Positions 40,632 to 50,164 of a DNA stretch of 64,000 nucleotides are shown piece after piece (the stretch's first letter is position 1; the number at the start of each line of letters is the position of its first letter). The stretch comes from Planktothricoides sp. SR001 (GTDB taxonomy: Bacteria; Cyanobacteriota; Cyanobacteriia; Cyanobacteriales; Laspinemataceae), in contig NZ_LIUQ01000029.1 of assembly GCF_001276715.1 (NCBI RefSeq), positions 1-64,000 on the forward strand, written 5' to 3'. A program made the translations under genes and the position numbers. The notes below the pieces were generated by a model. That model was not told the origin of the DNA and did no database searches. It saw only the letters and a program-made list of their open reading frames with translations.

Positions 40632-41135
40632 ATGTTCAAACATCCTAGGGGGCTAGAAATAGCCGAGTATATTTCTTTAGCTGGTGCCGTAACCGGGACA
40701 ATTTTGGCGACAGTTTTTGGCGATTTCACCTACGCAGCATGGCCGATCTGTTTTGCCATATTGTTGAATACGATCAACCGCCGCTATGGTTTAAATCAGA
40801 ATTGGCATTCTCGGCGCACGATCGCCCAATTAGAGGAAAAAATTGCCGCCCTCTCCCTAAAAAATATTGATGCGGCTAAAGTACAATCCCCAGAACAATT
40901 TAACCTGACATCGAATGCTGAGTCGATGAAAGCGATCGCCTCATTAATCGAAGCAGTGCAAAAATTGCGATCGCAGCAACAGCAACTTCATGGAGCGATT
41001 AAACAAATCAAAGATCAACTGAATACTTTAAGTCAACAATTCAAAGACCGACCCGAACTGGAACAAATTGAAAGCTTAACCCAAGTAATTGTAGCGCTTC
41101 AGCAACTTATCGATGATTTTAGAAAAGTGGATTAG
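40632..41135 (+). CDS. Membrane-hairpin/coiled-coil protein A (first of four paralogs)
   Basis: The 167-residue product starts with LEIAEYISLAGAVTGTILA, followed by TYAAWPICFAILLNTINRRY. The same two-helix membrane motif heads the products at 41862, 45727 and 47303. Consensus: L-[ED]-x-x-E-x-[ILV]-S-[IL], then G-[TA], YA-x-x-P, L-x-L-N-x-x-[NH]-R. After it comes a coiled coil with heptads (IAQLEEKIAALSLKN, LIEAVQKLRSQQQQLHGAI) to the end. No enzymatic domain is present, so it may oligomerise with its paralogs. Function unknown. Confidence 0.75.
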   Translation: MFKHPRGLEIAEYISLAGAVTGTILATVFGDFTYAAWPICFAILLNTINRRYGLNQNWHSRRTIAQLEEKIAALSLKNIDAAKVQSPEQFNLTSNAESMKAIASLIEAVQKLRSQQQQLHGAIKQIKDQLNTLSQQFKDRPELEQIESLTQVIVALQQLIDDFRKVD

Positions 41136-41484
41136 TTGTTTGTTGTTTGTTGGAGAAAGGGGAACAGTTATCAGGGAACGGGGAACGGAAGAGAGAGGAG
41201 AGAGAAGAAAGATGCATAGAAGAGAGAGTTTTCATAATTCACCTCTTTCCTGTTCCCTGTTCCCTGTTCCCTGTTCCCTTTTCCCTGTTTGTTGTTTGTT
41301 GGCAAGTTGTTTGTTGTTTGTTGGAGAAAGGGGAACAGTTATCAGGGAACGGGGAACGGAGGAGAGAGGAGAGAGAAGAAAGATGCATAGAAGAGAGAGT
41401 TTTCATAATTCACCTCTTTCCTGTTCCCTGTTCCCTGTTCCCTGTTCCCTGTTCCCTTTTCCCTGTTTGTTGTTTGTTGGCAAG
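41135..41484. repeat. Tandem duplication of about 171 bp
   Basis: Copy 1 (41135-41305) and copy 2 (41306-41484) both run from gttgtttgttgtttgttgg through ggggaacagttatcaggga and ctgttccctgttccct to ggcaag. They differ mainly in the number of ctgttccct units and one base. The open frames across both copies are repeat artefacts. Confidence 0.9.
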
Positions 41485-41861
41485 TTGTTTTGTTATTATT
41501 TTGTTATTTGTCGTTTGTCCTTTGACCGCGAACCGCGAACAAATAACAAATAACCAACAACAAACAACGAACAACGAACAACGAACAACGAACAACGAAC
41601 AACGAACAACGAACAACGAACAACGAACAAATAACAGATAACAGATATAAAAATAAAATGCAGTAACGATCGCCCTGCGCGGTAATGGCACAATAGGTGT
41701 TAAAGAAAATTTGTATTGGCAAAGGCCCAACGAGCGACTTCCTACGGGACGCTATGGGCGTTCGGCAGAGATTGCCGATTTGAGGCTAAACTACCGAGAC
41801 TCACTAGCAGAGACAAGTCTTGGCCATCTATCGTTGATAAGTGAAACATAGAGGAACCCTT
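41485..41861. other. Gap: heptamer array and leader
   Basis: aacaacg/aacaaat heptamers occupy about 41535-41630. The rest (41640-41861) may hold the promoter and leader of the 41862 gene. No gene seen. Confidence 0.6.
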
Positions 41862-44800
41862 ATGAAACAACAGTTGAGTCCATTAGAACTTTTGGAATAT
41901 ATATCCCTCGCTTGTACGGCAGCGGGGACTGTCACCGTGGTACTGCTTTCTCAGCACGTCGGATATGCGATCGGGCCGGGGGCTTTGTCTTTGGTACTCG
42001 GTGCCGCGAACCGCAGAAAATACTCGTCGAGTGGGTCTAATTCCACAGAAGTGGTCAAAATTGACCAAAAACTGTCTGAGGATGTGGCTTCAGTCCGCCA
42101 GGAGATCCAAACTTTACCCAAGTCCTCGGACTATAACAGTTTGAAATCTCAGGTAGAAAATTTAACCGTTTCCGTCGCCGGATTGGAGCAACACAAATCT
42201 GGGGCATTGACCAATGTGGGAGTGGAATTAAACCCCATCCGCCAAGATATTGTGCAGTTACGATCGCAATATGGCAATTTACAAGAGTTTTTCAACGAAT
42301 TGCGCGATCGCGTTGAAGTAACTTGGCAGCAACTACCTCCACCGGACAAAATCGCGCATCTGGAAAACGAACTTAAGCAGATGGACGCGAAGCTGACCCA
42401 ACTGCCTTCTAAGTTGCAAAAGATGACGGGGACAACTTCCGTTGATCTGACCAGCGTCACTGCTGAAATTGAAGCACTCAAGCAACAATTAAACAATATC
42501 GGTCAAGGGGGTGATGTTAATTCCTTGGTGCCAGAATTGGAGCAATTACGACGTCAAGTAGCGGCGTTAGAAAATACCACCGATCGCTTAGTGGTGAATA
42601 GCCAAAATCTGGCGGAAAAAGAAGAGGTGCGTTCGCTATCTATCACTTTACAGGAGTTACAAAAACAGCAAGAACAACTCCAACAAACTGCGGCAAGCGA
42701 TCGCAGCGCTTTATCAGAATTGCGCGATTCCGCAGAGTGGATCGCGTTCGCGAATCGCCTCGAAAACTTGCAAGCACAAATCAACCGAATTGGGGAGCAA
42801 ACTCCCGCCACCGTTCAAACTCAAAATTTGTCGGAATTGCAAGCACTGCAAGATAGATTAGAGCAACTTAGTCACCGTGTGAATCAGCGGATGTCCCTAG
42901 CTGTCGTAGAAGTCAAAGAAGGACAGATCATTGAACTAACTGGGATTGAAACCGCATTAGCCAAAATTGCCGATGCGGTTGCCGAAGTCAAGCAAGAAAT
43001 GGAAATCCGGATGTCTGAGATTTCTGCCTGGGAATTAACCGGAATTCACCAACAACTGCTAGACCAACAGCAAACTTTAATCGCCTTACAGCAAGACTAC
43101 CAAAACCTGCTGGCATCGACTTTAGAAAACCGTAACTGGGATCAATCTTTATCTGATTCTGAATATCAGCAAAAAATTGAAATTCTAGAGCGAGTTTTAG
43201 CCAGTAACACCGAAAGTATCGATCGCATAGAATCATCTCTGGGCAACCATACATTCGGTGAATCAGGAAATACAATTACCCATGAATCTGACTTGTCACG
43301 GGCAGTAGACATCGCCCAAATTGCTATTCTTCAAGGCAGCGTCTCACAATTGGCGGCGAATCTGGACAATTTAGAACAACAAGTCCAATTTTTAGCCAAT
43401 GGGGACAATGTAAACGAGCAAGTACACGATGAAATCCAAGCCCTGAAAGAGCAAATCAACCGCTTAGAAACTTCGGTGAATAATAACGAGATGATCGGAG
43501 GAGAGACAGGGACGGATTTGTATCCAGAAATTAGAATTATCACCCAAGAACTTAAGGAAATCGGTCTGCTCAAAGATACGATTTATCAGTTATCGGGGAA
43601 TGTGGAAATCTTGGATCAACAAGTCCACGATCTGAATATGGGGAATCCGCATAGTATTACCGGAGAACTCCGAGAACAAATTGAGGCGCTGATGGCCAAA
43701 GTTGAGCAACTACCAGAAAACCAAATTCCTGAAGATTTGACGAGTAATTACCAAACCGTTTGCTGGCGTTTAGACCAACTCGAAGCCGGTTATCTATCTT
43801 TAGAAACCCACCTCAAAGAAACTCAGGATGTAAGCAATCGCAACGATCAAGAAATCACCGATCAATTCTTAACCTTAAATGCTCAATTATCTGAATTACA
43901 GCAAGAGATTGATGGCATGGGTCAAAAATTAACTGATTTGGAAAAAGGATTGGAAGAAATTACGGTTTCTGAGTTAGCCGTCACTCGCCAGGATATAGCT
44001 ATACTGCAAGATACAGTCTCGGATTTAGTCACCCGACTAGAACAGGATTTAGACAAGTTCAACGATCGCGAAAAAGTTCAAAAATTGGAACAATCCTTGT
44101 TTACCTTGGAAACAAAACTTAGTCAGGCGATCGCGCAACTCGACGAGCAATTCCAAGCCCTGCAACTGCAAACCAGACAACTAGAAATAGAACAAGCGGA
44201 AACCCAAACCGCCACCAGTCAAATTGACGATCTGATCGGCAACTCCATTGAGCGACAAATGAGTGGCATTAGTCAACTGTTGCAAGATGTTGCCCCATGC
44301 GATTATGAATTAATCTTTGACCGTCCGGCAATTTACGACTGTTTAATCCAGGCGATCGCTAACAGTAATAAGCTGCTGATAATTGTCTGTCCGTGGCTGA
44401 ATCGTGAAATCATCAGCGGTCTGTTGGATGAATTTGAAGCTTTCCTAGAACGCAATGGTCAATTAAAAATTGGTTGGGGTCATCTGGCAGATATTAATGA
44501 GGGAGAATTTCCGCTGTTAGTTCAGCAGCAATGGCATACCGAAAATCTCACCACCCGTCGCCAATCTTATGATGCCCTAAATGACTTAGAAGCCCTGCGG
44601 GAAAAATATCCTAATCAACTGGAATATAAGGTACTGGGAACCCATGAAAACTTTTTAGTTGCTGATGAGAAAATGGCCTTAATTTCCAGTCATCATTTTC
44701 TCAGTAGCGATCGCGATATTCCCGAACGAGAAGTTGCCGTGAAAACTTCTTCGCTGAAGATTATTCACGGGTTAATCGATCGGTTCACCGATTCGGTGTT

Positions 44801-45611
44801 ACGACCGGGAAATGCGGAGGCTTATTACAACCGAGGGTTTGAACGGCTAGAAATTGGCGATTATGCTGGGGCAATGGCGGATTATGATGCCTCCCTAGCC
44901 CTCAACCCTGATCGCGCCACCAGCTACAATAACCGGGGATTGACAAAATATCATACGGGCAATCTTCCTGGCGCGATCGCGGATTATAGCAAGGCGATAG
45001 AACTGGATCCCGATGAACCCGTGACTTATTTTAACCGGGCTGTTGCCTACTATAAAATCGGCGACTATCGCCATAGCATCACCGATTATACTCAGGTGAT
45101 TCAGCGGCAAGATGGGATTCGGATTTCGGCGGAAAATACCGGCGCTTATTTCCAACGAGCGGAAGCGTATCGTCAGTTAGGGGAATATGAAAGTGCCATT
45201 TTGGATTACACAATGGCCATTCGTTTAGCCCCGAACGATCCCGTCGCGTATAACAATCGCGGGTTAGCCCGGTATAACCAGGGAGACTATCTGGGTAGCA
45301 TTGAGGATTACAGCGAAACCTTAACCCTGAACCCCAATGATGCGGTGGCGTATTCTAATCGCGGCGTTTCCCGGCTAAAAACTGGCGATTATGGTGGAGC
45401 CGTGGCAGATTTCGACAGCGCGATCGCCCTGAAACCGGATTATGCCAGTGCATACAATAATCGGGGGTTGGCGCGATTTGAAATGGGCGATCGCACCGAG
45501 GCGATCGCTGACTTAAAACAGGCAGCGGAATTATTTGCTGCCCAAGGAAATATCCCCAGCCAGCAACAAGCCTTAGACTCCTTGAAGCGACTCGGTTGCG
45601 AAGAAGGATAA
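41862..45611 (+). CDS. Membrane-hairpin/coiled-coil protein B with PLD-like and TPR domains
   Basis: 1249 residues from ATG at 41862, which has agagg seven bases upstream. The GTG at 41841 is less likely. Residues about 8-55 are the shared membrane hairpin (LELLEYISLACTAAGTV...YAIGPGALSLVLGAANRRK). Residues about 60-810 are long coiled coil. About 812-980 is a phospholipase-D-superfamily-like region: LLIIVCPWLNREII, LKIGWGHL, GTHENFLVADEKMALISSHH. This last resembles the HxKxxxxD box, but the Lys is replaced by Asn. About 985-1240 holds seven TPR repeats (YYNRGFERLEIGDYAGAMAD). Likely a membrane-tethered scaffold with a degenerate or atypical PLD module. Function unknown. Confidence 0.8.
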   Translation: MKQQLSPLELLEYISLACTAAGTVTVVLLSQHVGYAIGPGALSLVLGAANRRKYSSSGSNSTEVVKIDQKLSEDVASVRQEIQTLPKSSDYNSLKSQVENLTVSVAGLEQHKSGALTNVGVELNPIRQDIVQLRSQYGNLQEFFNELRDRVEVTWQQLPPPDKIAHLENELKQMDAKLTQLPSKLQKMTGTTSVDLTSVTAEIEALKQQLNNIGQGGDVNSLVPELEQLRRQVAALENTTDRLVVNSQNLAEKEEVRSLSITLQELQKQQEQLQQTAASDRSALSELRDSAEWIAFANRLENLQAQINRIGEQTPATVQTQNLSELQALQDRLEQLSHRVNQRMSLAVVEVKEGQIIELTGIETALAKIADAVAEVKQEMEIRMSEISAWELTGIHQQLLDQQQTLIALQQDYQNLLASTLENRNWDQSLSDSEYQQKIEILERVLASNTESIDRIESSLGNHTFGESGNTITHESDLSRAVDIAQIAILQGSVSQLAANLDNLEQQVQFLANGDNVNEQVHDEIQALKEQINRLETSVNNNEMIGGETGTDLYPEIRIITQELKEIGLLKDTIYQLSGNVEILDQQVHDLNMGNPHSITGELREQIEALMAKVEQLPENQIPEDLTSNYQTVCWRLDQLEAGYLSLETHLKETQDVSNRNDQEITDQFLTLNAQLSELQQEIDGMGQKLTDLEKGLEEITVSELAVTRQDIAILQDTVSDLVTRLEQDLDKFNDREKVQKLEQSLFTLETKLSQAIAQLDEQFQALQLQTRQLEIEQAETQTATSQIDDLIGNSIERQMSGISQLLQDVAPCDYELIFDRPAIYDCLIQAIANSNKLLIIVCPWLNREIISGLLDEFEAFLERNGQLKIGWGHLADINEGEFPLLVQQQWHTENLTTRRQSYDALNDLEALREKYPNQLEYKVLGTHENFLVADEKMALISSHHFLSSDRDIPEREVAVKTSSLKIIHGLIDRFTDSVLRPGNAEAYYNRGFERLEIGDYAGAMADYDASLALNPDRATSYNNRGLTKYHTGNLPGAIADYSKAIELDPDEPVTYFNRAVAYYKIGDYRHSITDYTQVIQRQDGIRISAENTGAYFQRAEAYRQLGEYESAILDYTMAIRLAPNDPVAYNNRGLARYNQGDYLGSIEDYSETLTLNPNDAVAYSNRGVSRLKTGDYGGAVADFDSAIALKPDYASAYNNRGLARFEMGDRTEAIADLKQAAELFAAQGNIPSQQQALDSLKRLGCEEG

Positions 45612-45726
45612 ATTGCTTCTTGTCCTTGGTCAGAAAGTCCTCAGTAGGTTGGGTTGAGGTCACGAAACCCAACCTACTAATTAATTTAATTGTGAATTAT
45701 CAGATCAATTATCAAATCATAGAATC
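45612..45726. repeat. Short gap with gtaggttgggtt palindrome
   Basis: gtaggttgggtt (45643-45654) and aacccaacctac (45667-45678) form a hairpin of the 12980 family. Confidence 0.8.
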
Positions 45727-46995
45727 ATGCAAAATATCCAACCTAATATCCAAAACCTGCGCCAAATCATCAGCGAATACCATTGGTTAGACCTGGCGGA
45801 ATCCGTTTCCATTGCGGCATCAGCGATCGGCACCTTAGCCGGCGCCTTATCCGGTCAAGTTGTCTATGCTGCCGCCCCCTTAACCGTGGCACTTTCCCTC
45901 AATTTAGCCAACCGATATCGCCTCGATGAAAACACCGAACAATATACCAAAGCCGCCATATCTGATGTCAGAAATGTGGTAGAATCTCTCTATACCGCTT
46001 TGCCAGAAAATGACCAACCCCAGATGGATTTTCAAGCCCTGCAAAAATCAATTTACCATCTGCAAAAAGTCACGGAAAGGCTAGAAAATAAAGCTTTAAC
46101 CGAAGATGACTGGCAAATGGTGAATGTGAGATTTTTAACTTTGCAAGAATCTTTAGAAAAGCTGACCCAATCTATCGGTAATTCCCAGTTCATCCCTCCA
46201 GCCATACAAAGAAGTGAAGCGGGTGAAATTTCTGGTAAAAATGCTGGAGAAATTAGAGAAGTTGCTCTGGCAAACTATTCTGAACTAGAACAACGGATCG
46301 GTCAACTAGAGCAGAAAAATCACGAAGTAATTAAACCCTATTTACAGCGGCTGACTCAAACATTACAACAGCTTAAGCAAGACCAGTCTTTAGGAAAAGT
46401 CAGGAAAAAAATCCAAGCACTCAGCGAAGAAATTAAACAAAGAACGGTCGTGCAAGTAGAAGTAGAAACATTAACCCAGCAGTTAGAAACAATTGCCGCT
46501 CAACAAGCACAACTAAATCAGCAGTTTTTAGAGTTACCAGCCCCCCCGGTTCCGGTTGATATCAGTAGCATAGAAGTTGCGATCGCCCAAATCTCTGAAG
46601 ACCTGACCACCACAAAAACTCAGACCAGCAAACGGTTTAAACGCATTCTTGGCACCTTAAATGCTTTAGAAGGGCAAATTAATCAACTACAACAGCTATC
46701 CCACAATCTACAATCATCCGTGGAAAAGGTGACAGAGGACTTGGATCATCTTTCCGATGCTGCCAACGTCGAAAACTTGGAAAATATCTTAAATCAAGTT
46801 TCCGCCGAACTTGCGGAAGTCCAAGATAAAATTAACTCCCTCACACCCCCGTTTAATCCAGCACCCCTAGAAGAGCAATTACAAGAACTAAGCGCGTTAA
46901 TCAAACAACAGTCCCCAGAACCAACCCAGTTTCTCACCAAGGAAGATATTGCCCCCCTGGTGGCGGCGATTAAAAAGCTGCAAAAACGGAAATAA
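45727..46995 (+). CDS. Membrane-hairpin/coiled-coil protein C
   Basis: The 422-residue product starts with the shared motif at about 18-68: LDLAESVSIAASAIGTLAG, then VVYAAAPLTVALSLNLANRY. The rest is coiled coil (LEQKNHEVIKPYLQRLTQ, LNALEGQINQLQQLSHNLQ) to a basic end, EDIAPLVAAIKKLQKRK. A similar segment (KLKLMIAAIKTLHEQN) occurs within protein D, so the similarity extends beyond the N-terminus. No enzymatic domain. It follows protein B with a 115-bp gap. Confidence 0.75.
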   Translation: MQNIQPNIQNLRQIISEYHWLDLAESVSIAASAIGTLAGALSGQVVYAAAPLTVALSLNLANRYRLDENTEQYTKAAISDVRNVVESLYTALPENDQPQMDFQALQKSIYHLQKVTERLENKALTEDDWQMVNVRFLTLQESLEKLTQSIGNSQFIPPAIQRSEAGEISGKNAGEIREVALANYSELEQRIGQLEQKNHEVIKPYLQRLTQTLQQLKQDQSLGKVRKKIQALSEEIKQRTVVQVEVETLTQQLETIAAQQAQLNQQFLELPAPPVPVDISSIEVAIAQISEDLTTTKTQTSKRFKRILGTLNALEGQINQLQQLSHNLQSSVEKVTEDLDHLSDAANVENLENILNQVSAELAEVQDKINSLTPPFNPAPLEEQLQELSALIKQQSPEPTQFLTKEDIAPLVAAIKKLQKRK

Positions 46996-47302
46996 ATTGG
47001 TTGTTGGGTAGGGATTCTTTGGTTGTTGGTTGTTGGTTTTTGGTTGGGGAAAGTGATGCATTGAAAAGTCGTAGGGGCTTTCTGGCCATAAGGCCTGACG
47101 GATTATGCTTCGCAAGGACGCCCGTACAAGTTAAAAAAAGTATCACTATTCACTATTCACTATTCACTATTCACTTTCCCCTCTGCACCCCCGCTCCCCC
47201 GCTCCCCCGCTCCCCCGCACCACTGTTCCCTCTTCCCTGTTCTCGTTATTTTGTAAATTTTACGGATGAACTGCATTTAATTCCGGATTCCATCCCCTAA
47301 GA
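46996..47302. other. Gap with heptamer repeats
   Basis: ttggttgttggttgttgg-type units at 47000-47046, cactatt heptamers at 47146-47173 and gctccccc units at 47191-47215. No gene. A frame at 47001-47300 is repeat-derived. Confidence 0.65.
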
Positions 47303-50164
47303 ATGAAAAAATTGCCAAAAGGGTATAGGAATTTTCCCATGCAAAGGAATTACGGTTGGTTAGAAGTTGCTGAGTATTTATCCATTGTTGCTTCCGTGAT
47401 GGGTGCAGTTGCCGCTGTCACCACGCAAAAAGCGGCGTTAATGGCTGTTCCCATGTCCATGTCCCTGATTTTGAATCTATTGCATCGACGGAAATTATTA
47501 TCTTTAAGTAGACAAATAATTGGCGCTGAAGTGACAGAACAATGCCAGGAATTGTCTGATTTAGTCCCGGGGCAGCCCAGTTCACGTATACCAGAAAGTC
47601 CCAGGGAAAAACAACAGATTCAACCAGCGATCGCGCAGCGTTGCGGATGCAACATCGCGCAGCGTTGCGGATGCAACATCGCGCAGCGTTGCGGATGCAA
47701 TATCGCGCAGCGTTGCGGATGCAATATCGCGCAGCGTTGCGGATGCAATATCGCGCAGCGTTGCGGATGCAATATCGCCTCTTTGCCTCTGGCAGAAATG
47801 GAAACATCTTTAGAACGCTTATGCCAAAAATTTGAACATCAACAAACTCAAATTAGTCAAATGATGGTGAATTTGGAAAAAATGAGCCATCAAATCCCAT
47901 GCACCTTGCCTAACAATTTGCCCAACAATTTGCCCAACAATTTACCTACTAATTTACCTATTATTAATAAATTGGCAAATTTTCCCAGTCAAAGCGATGC
48001 CCAAGATGCACCAATTGAAGATTTTAATCAGCGCAATTTATCCAGTAATGGTTATGTAGAGGCGGAAATTTCGGGAATTAAAACAGAGTTAATCAGACTT
48101 TATGAAAAATTAACTCAAGTTCAGAGTAAAACCGACAATTTGGTGCCGAAAAAAAAACTTAAACTGATGATTGCGGCGATTAAAACCCTGCATGAACAAA
48201 ATTTAGCTGCCCGGACGTCTATTCTTCAATTAAATGAAACCGTCGAGAAAATGTCCCCGCCGCCACCAGAGGGAAACCATCCATCTCAAATCCAATTTGA
48301 GGAGCAAATTAAAGAGCAAATTAAAAATTGTCTCCAGCAAATTTCCGATCTGCGAGGAGAAATCGCTGCACTGAATCAGGCGAAATCCTTGTGGGAAGAA
48401 ACCAGCGACCAAGGGATACCGGAAACAAAACTGCGGGAGTTAATTTCAGAAATAGTTGCTAGTGAATTGCGAAGTTTGCCTAATTCAATTTCCGTTGAAG
48501 CCAGCCCAAACCAACAATTTTTATTCTATAAAAATTTAATTTCAAGTTATGCTGGATGGACAGAAAGCGAAAGCGATTCGGCAAATTATATTGACTTTTA
48601 TTATATTCCTCAGTTACATCGAGAAATTAAAAACTTGTCAGAAGAAATTGCGATTCTAGAAGCGGAAATGGAAAACCGTTTAGCCCCATTGGAAGCAATC
48701 GATCGCCACAGCATTGAAGAAGACCTAGCCCTGCAATCCCAGGCGATCGCTGAACTCCAAGAACAGACGAAGCAACTCCGGGCATTCTCTCAGCTTCAAC
48801 CGCAAGAAGCGATTTCTGACTTACAAACCAAAGTATTATGCAGAAGGGCGTTCGCGCAGCGTTGCATCCGCAACGTTGCGCCGAATGGCAATTGGAATGG
48901 CAATTGGAAATGTCTGCATAGCTGGAATGCCCATGCAGAAGTCATATTTTCCCTAGACTTTAGCCGCGATGGAATGTTTTTGGCCACCGGCAGTGCCGAC
49001 CATACCGTAAAAGTTTGGCAAATTTTCTCAGAATTACGGACAGAAAATTCGACCACAGAAAATCTGGCTAATTTATCTGCTAATTTATCTGCTAATTTAT
49101 CTGCTAATTTATCTGCTAATTTATCTGCTAATTTATCTGCTAATTTATCTGCTAATTTATCTGCTAATTTATCTGCTGAATTATCTCAAACCTTCACAAG
49201 TCATACTCATGCGGTGCGGGCGATCGCCATCAGTCCCCAGCAAGATTTTATCGTCAGTGGCAGTGGCGATGTTGGATCCGCAACGGTTCGCGATCGCACC
49301 ATTCAAATTTGGCCATTGACTTGGCCAACTGAAGAAAACCAAAAACTTGTCATTCCGGCGAATGGGGGAATCCAGTCCTCTGAATTAGAACCCTTAAAAA
49401 TCCTCACAGGTCACTCTCTATCCGTGCGAGCGATCGCCATCAGTCCAGACGGTCAATTTATCGCCAGTGGCAGTGCAGATCAAACCATTCAAATTGCTCC
49501 CGTCGCCGATATTTTAGCCGATATTTTATCCGATTCCGCCAAAGCATCACGAGAAGCGAATCTCTCAAAGTCACACCCAGAAGTTGACCCAGAGTTATAT
49601 GAGTACCCTTGGCCATCCTTGCAAACCGTACTCACCGGCCACAAAGCCCCCGTAGATGCCCTAGCCTTTAGTCCCGACAGCCAGATCCTGGCCAGTGGTG
49701 CCGTAGACGCTGAGTTGAAAATTTGGCTAATGAATGCTCAAGAACTCCTCTGCACCCTCACAGACCATGTAGAACCGATTACCTCACTGGCATTTTCCGC
49801 TCATCCAGGATATCTTCTGAATCAACCGGGACATCTCCTCGCCAGTGGGAGTCTAGACTGCTCGATTAAAATTTGGCACATCAGCCCAAATGCTCCAGAA
49901 AGCAGAGTAATATTTACCCTCACAGGGCATTCAGAACCAGTGACTTGTGTCAAATTTAGTCCTAATGGGCAATTTCTTGCCAGTGCCAGCATTGACCAAA
50001 CCATCAAAATTTGGCTGATTTCCCCAGACACGGAAAATATTTCCTTACTTTGCACTCTCACAGGTCATCAACAACCCATCCTATCTTTAGCCTTTAGAGA
50101 TGAGCAAACCTTTGCCAGTTGCAGCGCTGATGGAGAAGTGAAAATTTGGCATTGCATCCTTTGA
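47303..50164 (+). CDS. Membrane-hairpin/coiled-coil protein D with seven-blade WD40 propeller
   Basis: The 953-residue product starts with the shared motif LEVAEYLSIVASVMGAVAA and VPMSMSLILNLLHRRK. A 24-bp DNA repeat then gives six copies of AQRCGCNI (47633-47776). Coiled coils follow, and residues about 537-953 form seven WD40 blades (HAEVIFSLDFSRDGMFLATG ... CSADGEVKIWHCIL). A 12-bp repeat gives about nine LSAN units between blades 1 and 2 (49066-49185), and NNLP units lie at 47906-47960. Many Cys in a cytoplasmic segment is unusual. Probably a scaffold like its three neighbours. Function unknown. Confidence 0.8.
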   Translation: MKKLPKGYRNFPMQRNYGWLEVAEYLSIVASVMGAVAAVTTQKAALMAVPMSMSLILNLLHRRKLLSLSRQIIGAEVTEQCQELSDLVPGQPSSRIPESPREKQQIQPAIAQRCGCNIAQRCGCNIAQRCGCNIAQRCGCNIAQRCGCNIAQRCGCNIASLPLAEMETSLERLCQKFEHQQTQISQMMVNLEKMSHQIPCTLPNNLPNNLPNNLPTNLPIINKLANFPSQSDAQDAPIEDFNQRNLSSNGYVEAEISGIKTELIRLYEKLTQVQSKTDNLVPKKKLKLMIAAIKTLHEQNLAARTSILQLNETVEKMSPPPPEGNHPSQIQFEEQIKEQIKNCLQQISDLRGEIAALNQAKSLWEETSDQGIPETKLRELISEIVASELRSLPNSISVEASPNQQFLFYKNLISSYAGWTESESDSANYIDFYYIPQLHREIKNLSEEIAILEAEMENRLAPLEAIDRHSIEEDLALQSQAIAELQEQTKQLRAFSQLQPQEAISDLQTKVLCRRAFAQRCIRNVAPNGNWNGNWKCLHSWNAHAEVIFSLDFSRDGMFLATGSADHTVKVWQIFSELRTENSTTENLANLSANLSANLSANLSANLSANLSANLSANLSANLSAELSQTFTSHTHAVRAIAISPQQDFIVSGSGDVGSATVRDRTIQIWPLTWPTEENQKLVIPANGGIQSSELEPLKILTGHSLSVRAIAISPDGQFIASGSADQTIQIAPVADILADILSDSAKASREANLSKSHPEVDPELYEYPWPSLQTVLTGHKAPVDALAFSPDSQILASGAVDAELKIWLMNAQELLCTLTDHVEPITSLAFSAHPGYLLNQPGHLLASGSLDCSIKIWHISPNAPESRVIFTLTGHSEPVTCVKFSPNGQFLASASIDQTIKIWLISPDTENISLLCTLTGHQQPILSLAFRDEQTFASCSADGEVKIWHCIL
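47633..47776. repeat. 24-bp in-frame tandem repeat (six copies)
   Basis: Unit gcgcagcgttgcggatgcaacatc with one c/t variable site, translating to AQRCGCNI six times in gene D. The sequence contains the same gcgcagcgttgcggatgc word as the repeat at 48846-48890, where it is inverted. Confidence 0.95.
49066..49185. repeat. 12-bp in-frame tandem repeat (LSAN)n
   Basis: Ten or so copies of gctaatttatct, adding an LSAN ladder in a loop between WD40 blades of gene D. Confidence 0.95.

Follow-up and report, generated by a model that had tools for sequence, protein, structure and literature searches.

The window analyzed here, a 64,000-nucleotide stretch of DNA from the cyanobacterium Planktothricoides sp. 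SR001, contains four genes on the plus strand, designated P1 through P4 and starting at positions 40632, 41862, 45727 and 47303, which encode proteins sharing an N-terminal segment of approximately 50 residues (designated Nd) followed by different C-terminal parts. The best explanation, held with moderate confidence, is that the four proteins belong to a family of coiled-coil scaffolds of cyanobacteria which are tethered to the membrane and hold different cytoplasmic modules there. It is the simplest reading since the modules carried behind Nd are mostly interaction platforms and the genes sharing the putative anchor are recurrently clustered.

The Nd domain

The positions and common strand of the four paralogs are as given in an earlier reading made from the letters of the DNA alone (the sequence-only reading), and the shared N-terminal pattern described there is real. 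Pairwise alignment of the Nd segments gave BLOSUM62 scores of 70–97, and in each of the six pairs none of 2000 shuffles preserving the hydrophobic/polar pattern reached the score. Since the class-preserving shuffles failed in all six pairs, the likeness is more than that of two hydrophobic helices, chance resemblance of hydrophobic helices is ruled out, and the Nd segments of P1–P4 are homologous as judged by sequence. In an alignment of 44 sequences G is invariant and E, P, L, N, N and R are each conserved in at least 90%, indicating a motif with conserved positions as opposed to a generic helix. The element earlier written as L-x-L-N-x-x-[NH]-R is slightly off in that P1 begins with I and P2 departs from the consensus with G instead of N in the LN pair, while the absence of the YA pair from P4 was correctly noted. 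The domain was located by profile matching, on the plus strand in each case, at 40647..40799 in P1 (expect value (E) 2.3e-27, P1 itself being a row of the query alignment), 41877..42023 in P2, 45778..45942 in P3 and 47351..47515 in P4.

Membership of Nd in a known family was rejected on searches of Pfam and PDB with the Nd segments. No Pfam family was found, the 44 segments yielding one weak match (DUF2231, 7.3e-4), and the Nd profile was without a match among PDB sequences at E up to 1. A phage origin was also rejected, PHROGs, searched at E up to 1e-4, having matched only the TPR region of P2 and, in an SbcC-like match, the P3 coiled coil.

Hydropathy was evaluated in 144 Nd proteins, a set reduced from 182 by dropping near-identical sequences and excluding open reading frames (ORFs) touching the ends of loci. 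Neither this set nor the set of 152 proteins described below is random, as the named loci obtained with one peptide pattern over-represent KPY types (defined below) of Microcoleus, Tychonema and Planktothrix. Nd is the most hydrophobic part of the protein, with a median best 19-mer of 1.66 versus 0.99 in the rest, and a part outside Nd exceeded 1.6 in 1 of the 144 proteins. The mean net charge flanking Nd is +1.35 before and +1.12 behind. An AlphaFold model of P1, obtained with low confidence (predicted local distance difference test, pLDDT, 63.6), places helices at residues 5–29 and 33–84 with a three-residue turn between them. The basic flanks and the model suggest that Nd is probably a hairpin whose two ends are cytoplasmic, the mean charge being positive on both sides. 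Insertion of the hairpin in the membrane is putative and based on the hydropathy combined with the helix prediction.

Subfamilies and modules

P1 (40632..41135, plus strand, ORF of 167 amino acids) consists of the Nd hairpin, a coiled coil and a C-terminal motif, F-x-x-R-P-E-L-x-Q-[IV], designated RPE (RPELEQIESL near the C-terminus of P1), in which F, R, P, E, L and Q are invariant in nine sequences including P1. In the form F-x-x-R-P-E-x-x-Q-[IV] it was assigned by alignment to residues 137–146 (41040..41069, plus strand). P3 (45727..46995, plus strand, 422 amino acids) consists of the Nd hairpin and a coiled coil with the motif K-P-[YH]-[LI]-x-R-L, designated KPY (KPYLQRL, residues 203–209, 46333..46353, plus strand, by alignment), with K, P, R and L invariant in 16 sequences including P3. 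Both proteins had been described as carrying nothing behind the coiled coil, which the two conserved subfamily motifs contradict. The proposal of coiled coils in all four proteins is upheld for P1, P2 and P3 (heptad z of 4.9, 8.2 and 5.4) and is not clear for P4, the z of which (1.8) lies within the range of four control regions (-0.9 to 2.2).

Among the 144 proteins, the RPE pattern was found in 12 of the 71 without a known module, 5 of 25 with a phospholipase D (PLD)-like domain, none of 43 with WD40 repeats and none of 5 with TPR; the KPY pattern was confined to the 71 proteins without a known module, of which 36 carry it. A search of 1688 ORFs without a called Nd gave eight pattern matches, two KPY and six RPE. 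The six are Nd genes of three kinds: genes split behind Nd (L006, L039), genes whose Nd precedes the first usual start codon within one open frame (L024, L121), and PLD-TPR genes truncated at the end of the locus (L044, L096). At L039:5579-6597, on contig C159 of the genome containing the window, and at L214, the Nd gene stops at 144 amino acids and is followed by an ORF of 139 amino acids, with the RPE motif present in L039. The early-ending gene is present in both genomes of the species and looks like a split gene from its sequence; the probable counterpart in a second species of the genus (G001) is an open frame of 344 amino acids.

Classification of 152 proteins unique by Nd gave 44 with WD40, 36 KPY, 26 PLD, 13 RPE, 7 FtsZ, 5 TPR, 4 pentapeptide and 17 others, one protein (L210) having been reassigned from other to FtsZ. 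The propeller, TPR, pentapeptide, pseudo-PLD and coiled-coil modules are mostly interaction platforms, and among the proteins scanned FtsZ, itself a polymer former, is the sole clear enzyme domain. In a tree of Nd with 116 rows, from which rows more than 82% identical were excluded, the architecture label required 39 changes versus 69.7 after shuffling, no value as low being reached in 200 shuffles, and the KPY label 2 versus 13.4. The tree is weak, having 57 columns and 14 of 113 branches starred, and near-copies inflate such shuffles; the TPR and FtsZ labels are ungrouped and P4 is without a clear place. Judged by sequence, P1–P4 represent four subfamilies which look old, since architectures group on the tree beyond shuffles. 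A recent local tandem duplication was rejected, contradicted by the same grouping within the limits of the tree.

P2 (41862..45611, plus strand) has 1249 amino acids from the ATG, with an alternative in-frame GTG upstream at 41841. The Nd hairpin is followed by a long coiled coil, a degenerate PLD-like domain (44226..44816, plus strand, delimited from the model, fold matches and relatives) and seven TPR (44817..45530, plus strand, seven TPR_1 stretches with approximate ends). The model of the PLD-like domain (pLDDT 79.6, predicted template modeling score 0.75) has the PLD fold, with NucT (E 2.3e-8), Nuc (E 3.7e-7) and chains of human FAM83 among the fold matches. A profile search of PDB with the PLD alignment gave a best E of 0.085. 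The site expected to contain HxKxxxxD reads HENFLVAD in P2, and HxKx4D is present at the aligned site in none of 25 relatives, N replacing K in 18 and H being kept in 12. In L110 the K is present at the site and the D is missing, and in L131 an HxKx4D string occurs elsewhere in the domain. Since the motif is lost at its site in all 25, the PLD-like module is probably a pseudoenzyme; an active PLD enzyme was rejected on the same count. FAM83 proteins are scaffolds with a PLD fold lacking catalysis and are without Nd or TPR. They are eukaryotic, and kinship with P2 beyond the common PLD fold is not claimed.

Residues 722–973 of P2 also match the PADLOC profile for MkoB (E 1.6e-20). In the Mokosh system the PLD protein is accompanied by a linked RNA helicase. 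P2 differs from MkoB by the lost catalytic motif and by the added Nd and TPR, and no linked helicase was recognized by eye among the ORFs of 30–56 kb, where the profile scan covered the two upstream ATPases P5 and P6.

P4 (47303..50164, plus strand, 953 amino acids) consists of the Nd hairpin, a variable linker and seven WD40 repeats (48890..50155, plus strand, seven PF00400 stretches with approximate ends). Tandem repeats are present at 47630-47778 (24 bp, 6.2 copies) and, inside the WD40 region, at 49062-49186 (12 bp, 10.3 copies); their peptide units are absent in G001. The counterpart of P4 in that genome is 67% identical and those of P1–P3 are 86–93% identical. The TPR and PLD-like domain of P2, the WD40 repeats of P4 and P6 and the AAA_35 domain of P5 were all confirmed, the sequence-only reading having called the two ATPases STAND/AAA-like.

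Seven Nd proteins of 483–1254 amino acids carry a complete FtsZ behind a coiled coil: L102:7986-9434:+ of Symplocastrum torsivum, L166:6003-7655:- (genome G015) and L208–L212, from five genomes of one family. FtsZ_C was above the cut-off in all seven, and the tubulin profile matched in the four scanned (L102, L166, L209, L210). L166 has the signature MGKGTGTG and the other six have MGGGTGTG. In the genomes checked, G015 and the five of L208–L212, the fusion is a second FtsZ beside an ordinary one, which in G015 has 424 amino acids. Of 10 genomes sampled from the family of L208–L212, five have a second FtsZ, in each case of the Nd type. At the place of the second FtsZ of G003, G005, G006, G008 and G035 there is no Nd match, and no fusion was seen in the family of the window, where the second FtsZ of G007 and G009–G011 was not placed. 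Two DUF697 genes, one of which has dynamin-type GTPase matches, flank the fusion in L209; relatives have genes of similar size at the same place, judged by size or sequence start and not by profile, and in L210 the sequence start is also alike.

The fusions bear on an alternative in which the Nd proteins are a membrane-linked cytoskeletal or membrane-shaping system, the rods behaving like intermediate filaments or guiding FtsZ-like polymers. The seven fusions, the location of one between DUF697 genes and a build rich in coiled coil argue for this alternative. It is nevertheless unlikely, given that FtsZ fusions are rare and none was seen in the window's family, that filament formation is without evidence here and that WD40 and TPR modules are more typical of scaffolds. 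An extra FtsZ-like protein with a coiled coil, FtsZl1, has been proposed to serve membrane remodeling, and a crenarchaeal FtsZ-like protein has N-terminal transmembrane helices (PMC2875224). As far as the accessible text of that report describes it, FtsZl1 has an N-terminal FtsZ domain, whereas the Nd fusions have a bacterial-type FtsZ located C-terminal to the hairpin and occur only in relatives of the window genes.

Other fusions were also detected. L148:7595-9343:+ joins Nd to a GUN4-like domain (E 4.4e-39), which also matches the defense model PD-T4-6 (E 8.2e-45); GUN4 is a tetrapyrrole-signaling module. Fusions to pentapeptide repeats include one from the genome of the window (L041). At L041:1749-7415 (contig C85), L174 and L169 the fusion belongs to a gene set encoding proteins of approximately 230–255 and 100 amino acids, coiled-coil proteins of approximately 330 and 370 amino acids and the Nd-pentapeptide protein. 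Of the partners in L041, three have no Pfam match and a 389-amino-acid coiled-coil protein has a sub-threshold match only. Two genes resembling this set by eye lie near an Nd cluster of genome G031 (L045). L158 (G118) encodes an Nd-coiled coil-TPR protein of 272 amino acids.

Distribution and gene neighborhood

A profile of the four window segments identified, besides P1–P4, four Nd copies in the same genome beyond the window (E 1.5e-17 to 1.3e-12), eight in all, and Nd was found in 34 of 39 related genomes with this one counted (E <=1e-3). The sequence-only reading had proposed such a search to tell a conserved domain from a generic transmembrane helix, and a domain with conserved positions was obtained. 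With the 44-sequence alignment Nd was detected in 82 of 386 genomes and 52 of 143 genera of a phylum sample (E <=1e-3), and in 179 of 243 genomes and 87 of 109 genera of the order (E <=1e-5). Copies per genome range from one to nine and are steady at 7–9 in the window's family (13 of 13 genomes). Occurrence outside the phylum was covered solely by a scan of a genome collection with one peptide pattern, which gave 77 stretches and 58 confirmed loci, each titled as cyanobacterial. A plasmid search with P3 gave two weak matches to hypothetical proteins of Anabaena cylindrica and Acaryochloris.

The order RPE, PLD-TPR, KPY, WD40 found in the window is repeated in a genome of the same species (G413, L213) and in G001 of the same genus (L043). 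G413, which is assembled as one contig, also has eight Nd genes and the identical cluster order; the cluster is therefore not an assembly artifact. The order or parts of it are conserved across several genera: RPE, PLD, KPY in L049; PLD, KPY in L046, L047, L048, L051 and L052; WD40, PLD in L101; and mgtE, WD40, RPE, PLD-TPR in L114. In L050 and L113 WD40 and RPE genes with overlapping ends (-1 and -38 bp) lie behind mgtE, and Microcoleus vaginatus L096 has KPY, KPY, WD40. One contig of G031 (L045, L044) contains mgtE, WD40, PLD(RPE), PLD-TPR, a 286-amino-acid gene, KPY, a 178-amino-acid ORF, KPY and WD40. Co-occurrence of the genes elsewhere, the lack of which would by the sequence-only reading have counted against the idea, is seen as clustering in other genera. 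The gene downstream of P4 (50300..51388, plus strand), presumably trpD-like from its sequence, has a similar gene adjoining the cluster of another genus (L049). Between P1 and P2, at positions 41134-41490, a 171-bp unit containing CCTGTTC 7-mers is present twice (95% match), followed by AACGAAC repeats.

Two ATPases precede the cluster and are judged to lie outside the system: P5 (35363..36670, plus strand), with an N-terminal region lacking a Pfam match and an AAA_35 domain (PF14516, E 1.2e-135), and P6 (36683..40237, plus strand), with an AAA_35-like ATPase, a membrane segment and 13 WD40 repeats. The sequence-only reading counted them as part of the set. They adjoin the cluster only in the window's genus (L043, L213), and no similar ATPase ORF was found in the stretches examined of 14 other clustered-Nd loci, on which ground they were rejected as partners. 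In 8 of the 58 named loci, from relatives of Microcoleus and Tychonema, a gene with the N-domain of P5 lies close to an Nd gene of the KPY type; the sole one scanned, in L087, is of the NB-ARC type.

These neighbors bear on the suggestion of a signaling or defense complex, which had been offered beside that of a membrane-bound scaffold. In a conflict or programmed-death system Nd would dock variable modules, and the membrane proteins would be triggered by the adjacent STAND-like ATPases once these had detected an invader. In multicellular bacteria, NTP-dependent conflict systems combine a constant module with TPR, beta-propeller, pentapeptide and other modules (PMC7159879), and the Nd family likewise joins a constant module to TPR, propeller, pentapeptide and, rarely, FtsZ. 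The two ATPases upstream in the genus, the eight loci with the P5 N-domain and the MkoB and PD-T4-6 matches point in the same direction. Against a defense system stand the absence of the ATPases from the 14 other loci, the lost PLD motif, neighbors such as mgtE and the trpD-like gene and the steady copy number of 7–9. Moreover, no nuclease, TIR, caspase or pore-type domain was found in two scans of 28 and 10 Nd proteins (5 shared), most WD40, KPY and PLD types being outside the scan. The other defense-model matches listed (25 of 28) were to LmuB, JetC, DruC, ZorA, PDC-S06 and MkoC and are mostly read as coiled-coil matches; an HNH_repeat match in L100 was below the cut-off and was counted as a chance match of the same kind. 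In contrast to the systems described in PMC7159879, the Nd clusters do not keep linkage to ATPases across genomes and show no toxin-type effector in the proteins scanned, and the main text of that report contains no occurrence of hairpin, phospholipase D, PLD or MgtE. Defense is accordingly regarded as distinctly unlikely, and of the two earlier suggestions the scaffold is the better supported.

The commonest directly adjacent same-strand neighbor among the 40 largest neighbor groups listed is mgtE, found beside 18 distinct Nd genes; second among these groups is a gene of 700 amino acids beside 10 Nd genes, KPY types of the Microcoleus group. Of the 43 Nd-WD40 genes, 17 have mgtE immediately upstream in the same orientation, as does 1 of the 101 others, the latter being one of 71 without a module, with none of 25 PLD and none of 5 TPR types. 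Among 62 MgtE loci in 36 of the 39 genomes, Nd follows within 800 bp on the same strand in 23 (23 genomes, 11 families). In the window's genome the mgtE-(Nd-WD40) pair lies outside the window on contig C42 (L038), and in L114 and G031 the pair adjoins a gene set of the window type. Since the pair recurs, and in two other genomes stands beside this gene set, the results suggest that MgtE is one partner of Nd proteins. The mgtE-linked protein of L118:7234-8157:- lacks WD40 and has the RPE motif and an extra C-terminal stretch without a Pfam or PADLOC match.

The linkage invites the alternative of a magnesium-homeostasis complex, in which Nd proteins would be accessory subunits that gate, cluster or localize MgtE and the window cluster would be a detached part of an operon. 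Recurrence of the pair in 11 families, the end-overlapping genes behind mgtE in L050 and L113 and the position of mgtE at the head of window-type sets in L114 and G031 are consistent with it. The restriction of directly upstream mgtE to the WD40 type and one other, the FtsZ, GUN4 and pentapeptide fusions indicating other clients, and the 39 MgtE loci without Nd downstream render this alternative doubtful.

Proposed assembly and relation to described systems

In the favored scaffold model the Nd hairpin, two helices joined by a tight turn, would anchor each protein in the membrane, and small residues around the invariant G could allow copies or paralogs to pack together. The coiled coils behind Nd would zip the proteins into rods, oligomerization by this means being plausible from the sequences, and RPELEQIESL and KPYLQRL may act as specific contacts. 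The distal module, which differs in each paralog (TPR with the degenerate PLD, WD40 propeller, or none), would recruit clients to the membrane patch. Clustered paralogs such as those of the window may form one mixed assembly, and a single Nd gene in a genome would give a homo-oligomer.

Several observations weigh against this model. Nd is only moderately hydrophobic, helix 1 averaging one charged residue, and since 61 of the 144 copies are without a 19-mer above 1.6 a weakly inserted or surface-bound hairpin is possible. Lone Nd genes prevail, 109 of 143 having no same-strand Nd neighbor in the locus examined (15 of 25 for PLD types), and in family f28 of the phylum sample Nd is single copy in 17 of 18 Nd-bearing genomes; a mixed assembly therefore cannot be general. 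P4 is without a clear coiled-coil signal and, as noted, is the least conserved of the four in the sister species. A single operon for P1–P4 is not certain since the genes are separated by gaps of 115–726 bp. The window copies do not adjoin mgtE, and the 39 MgtE loci mentioned above are to be counted here as well.

The cyanobacterial coiled-coil-rich protein All4981 carries TPR, and Syc2039, with a transmembrane domain predicted at its N-terminus, assembles into filament-like networks (PMC7002697). Nd proteins are likewise rich in coiled coil, and the TPR of P2 types parallels that of All4981; the accessible text of the report mentions no WD40, phospholipase or hairpin, the comparison being by description and not by sequence. 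No description of the Nd domain, the mgtE pairing or Nd-FtsZ was found in the open literature searched, nor in the accessible portions of PMC2875224, PMC7002697, PMC7159879 and PMC8195603, although a prior description is possible. The open literature searched likewise gave no paper on MgtE with WD40 in cyanobacteria and no interaction, location or phenotype data on Nd proteins, and listings on FtsZ paralogs contained none on a cyanobacterial hairpin-FtsZ. A tentative possibility is that the genes belong to an undescribed membrane-organizing system in which a lattice of hairpins and coiled coils holds MgtE and interchangeable modules, joined in some lineages by a second FtsZ, permanently anchored in the membrane, beside DUF697 GTPases.

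Overall, the results define a widespread and apparently undescribed cyanobacterial domain without a Pfam family. They provide testable roles for uncharacterized proteins, namely an MgtE-linked scaffold, a platform built on a pseudo-PLD and an FtsZ paralog tethered to the membrane, with which membrane organization in large filamentous cyanobacteria becomes directly testable.

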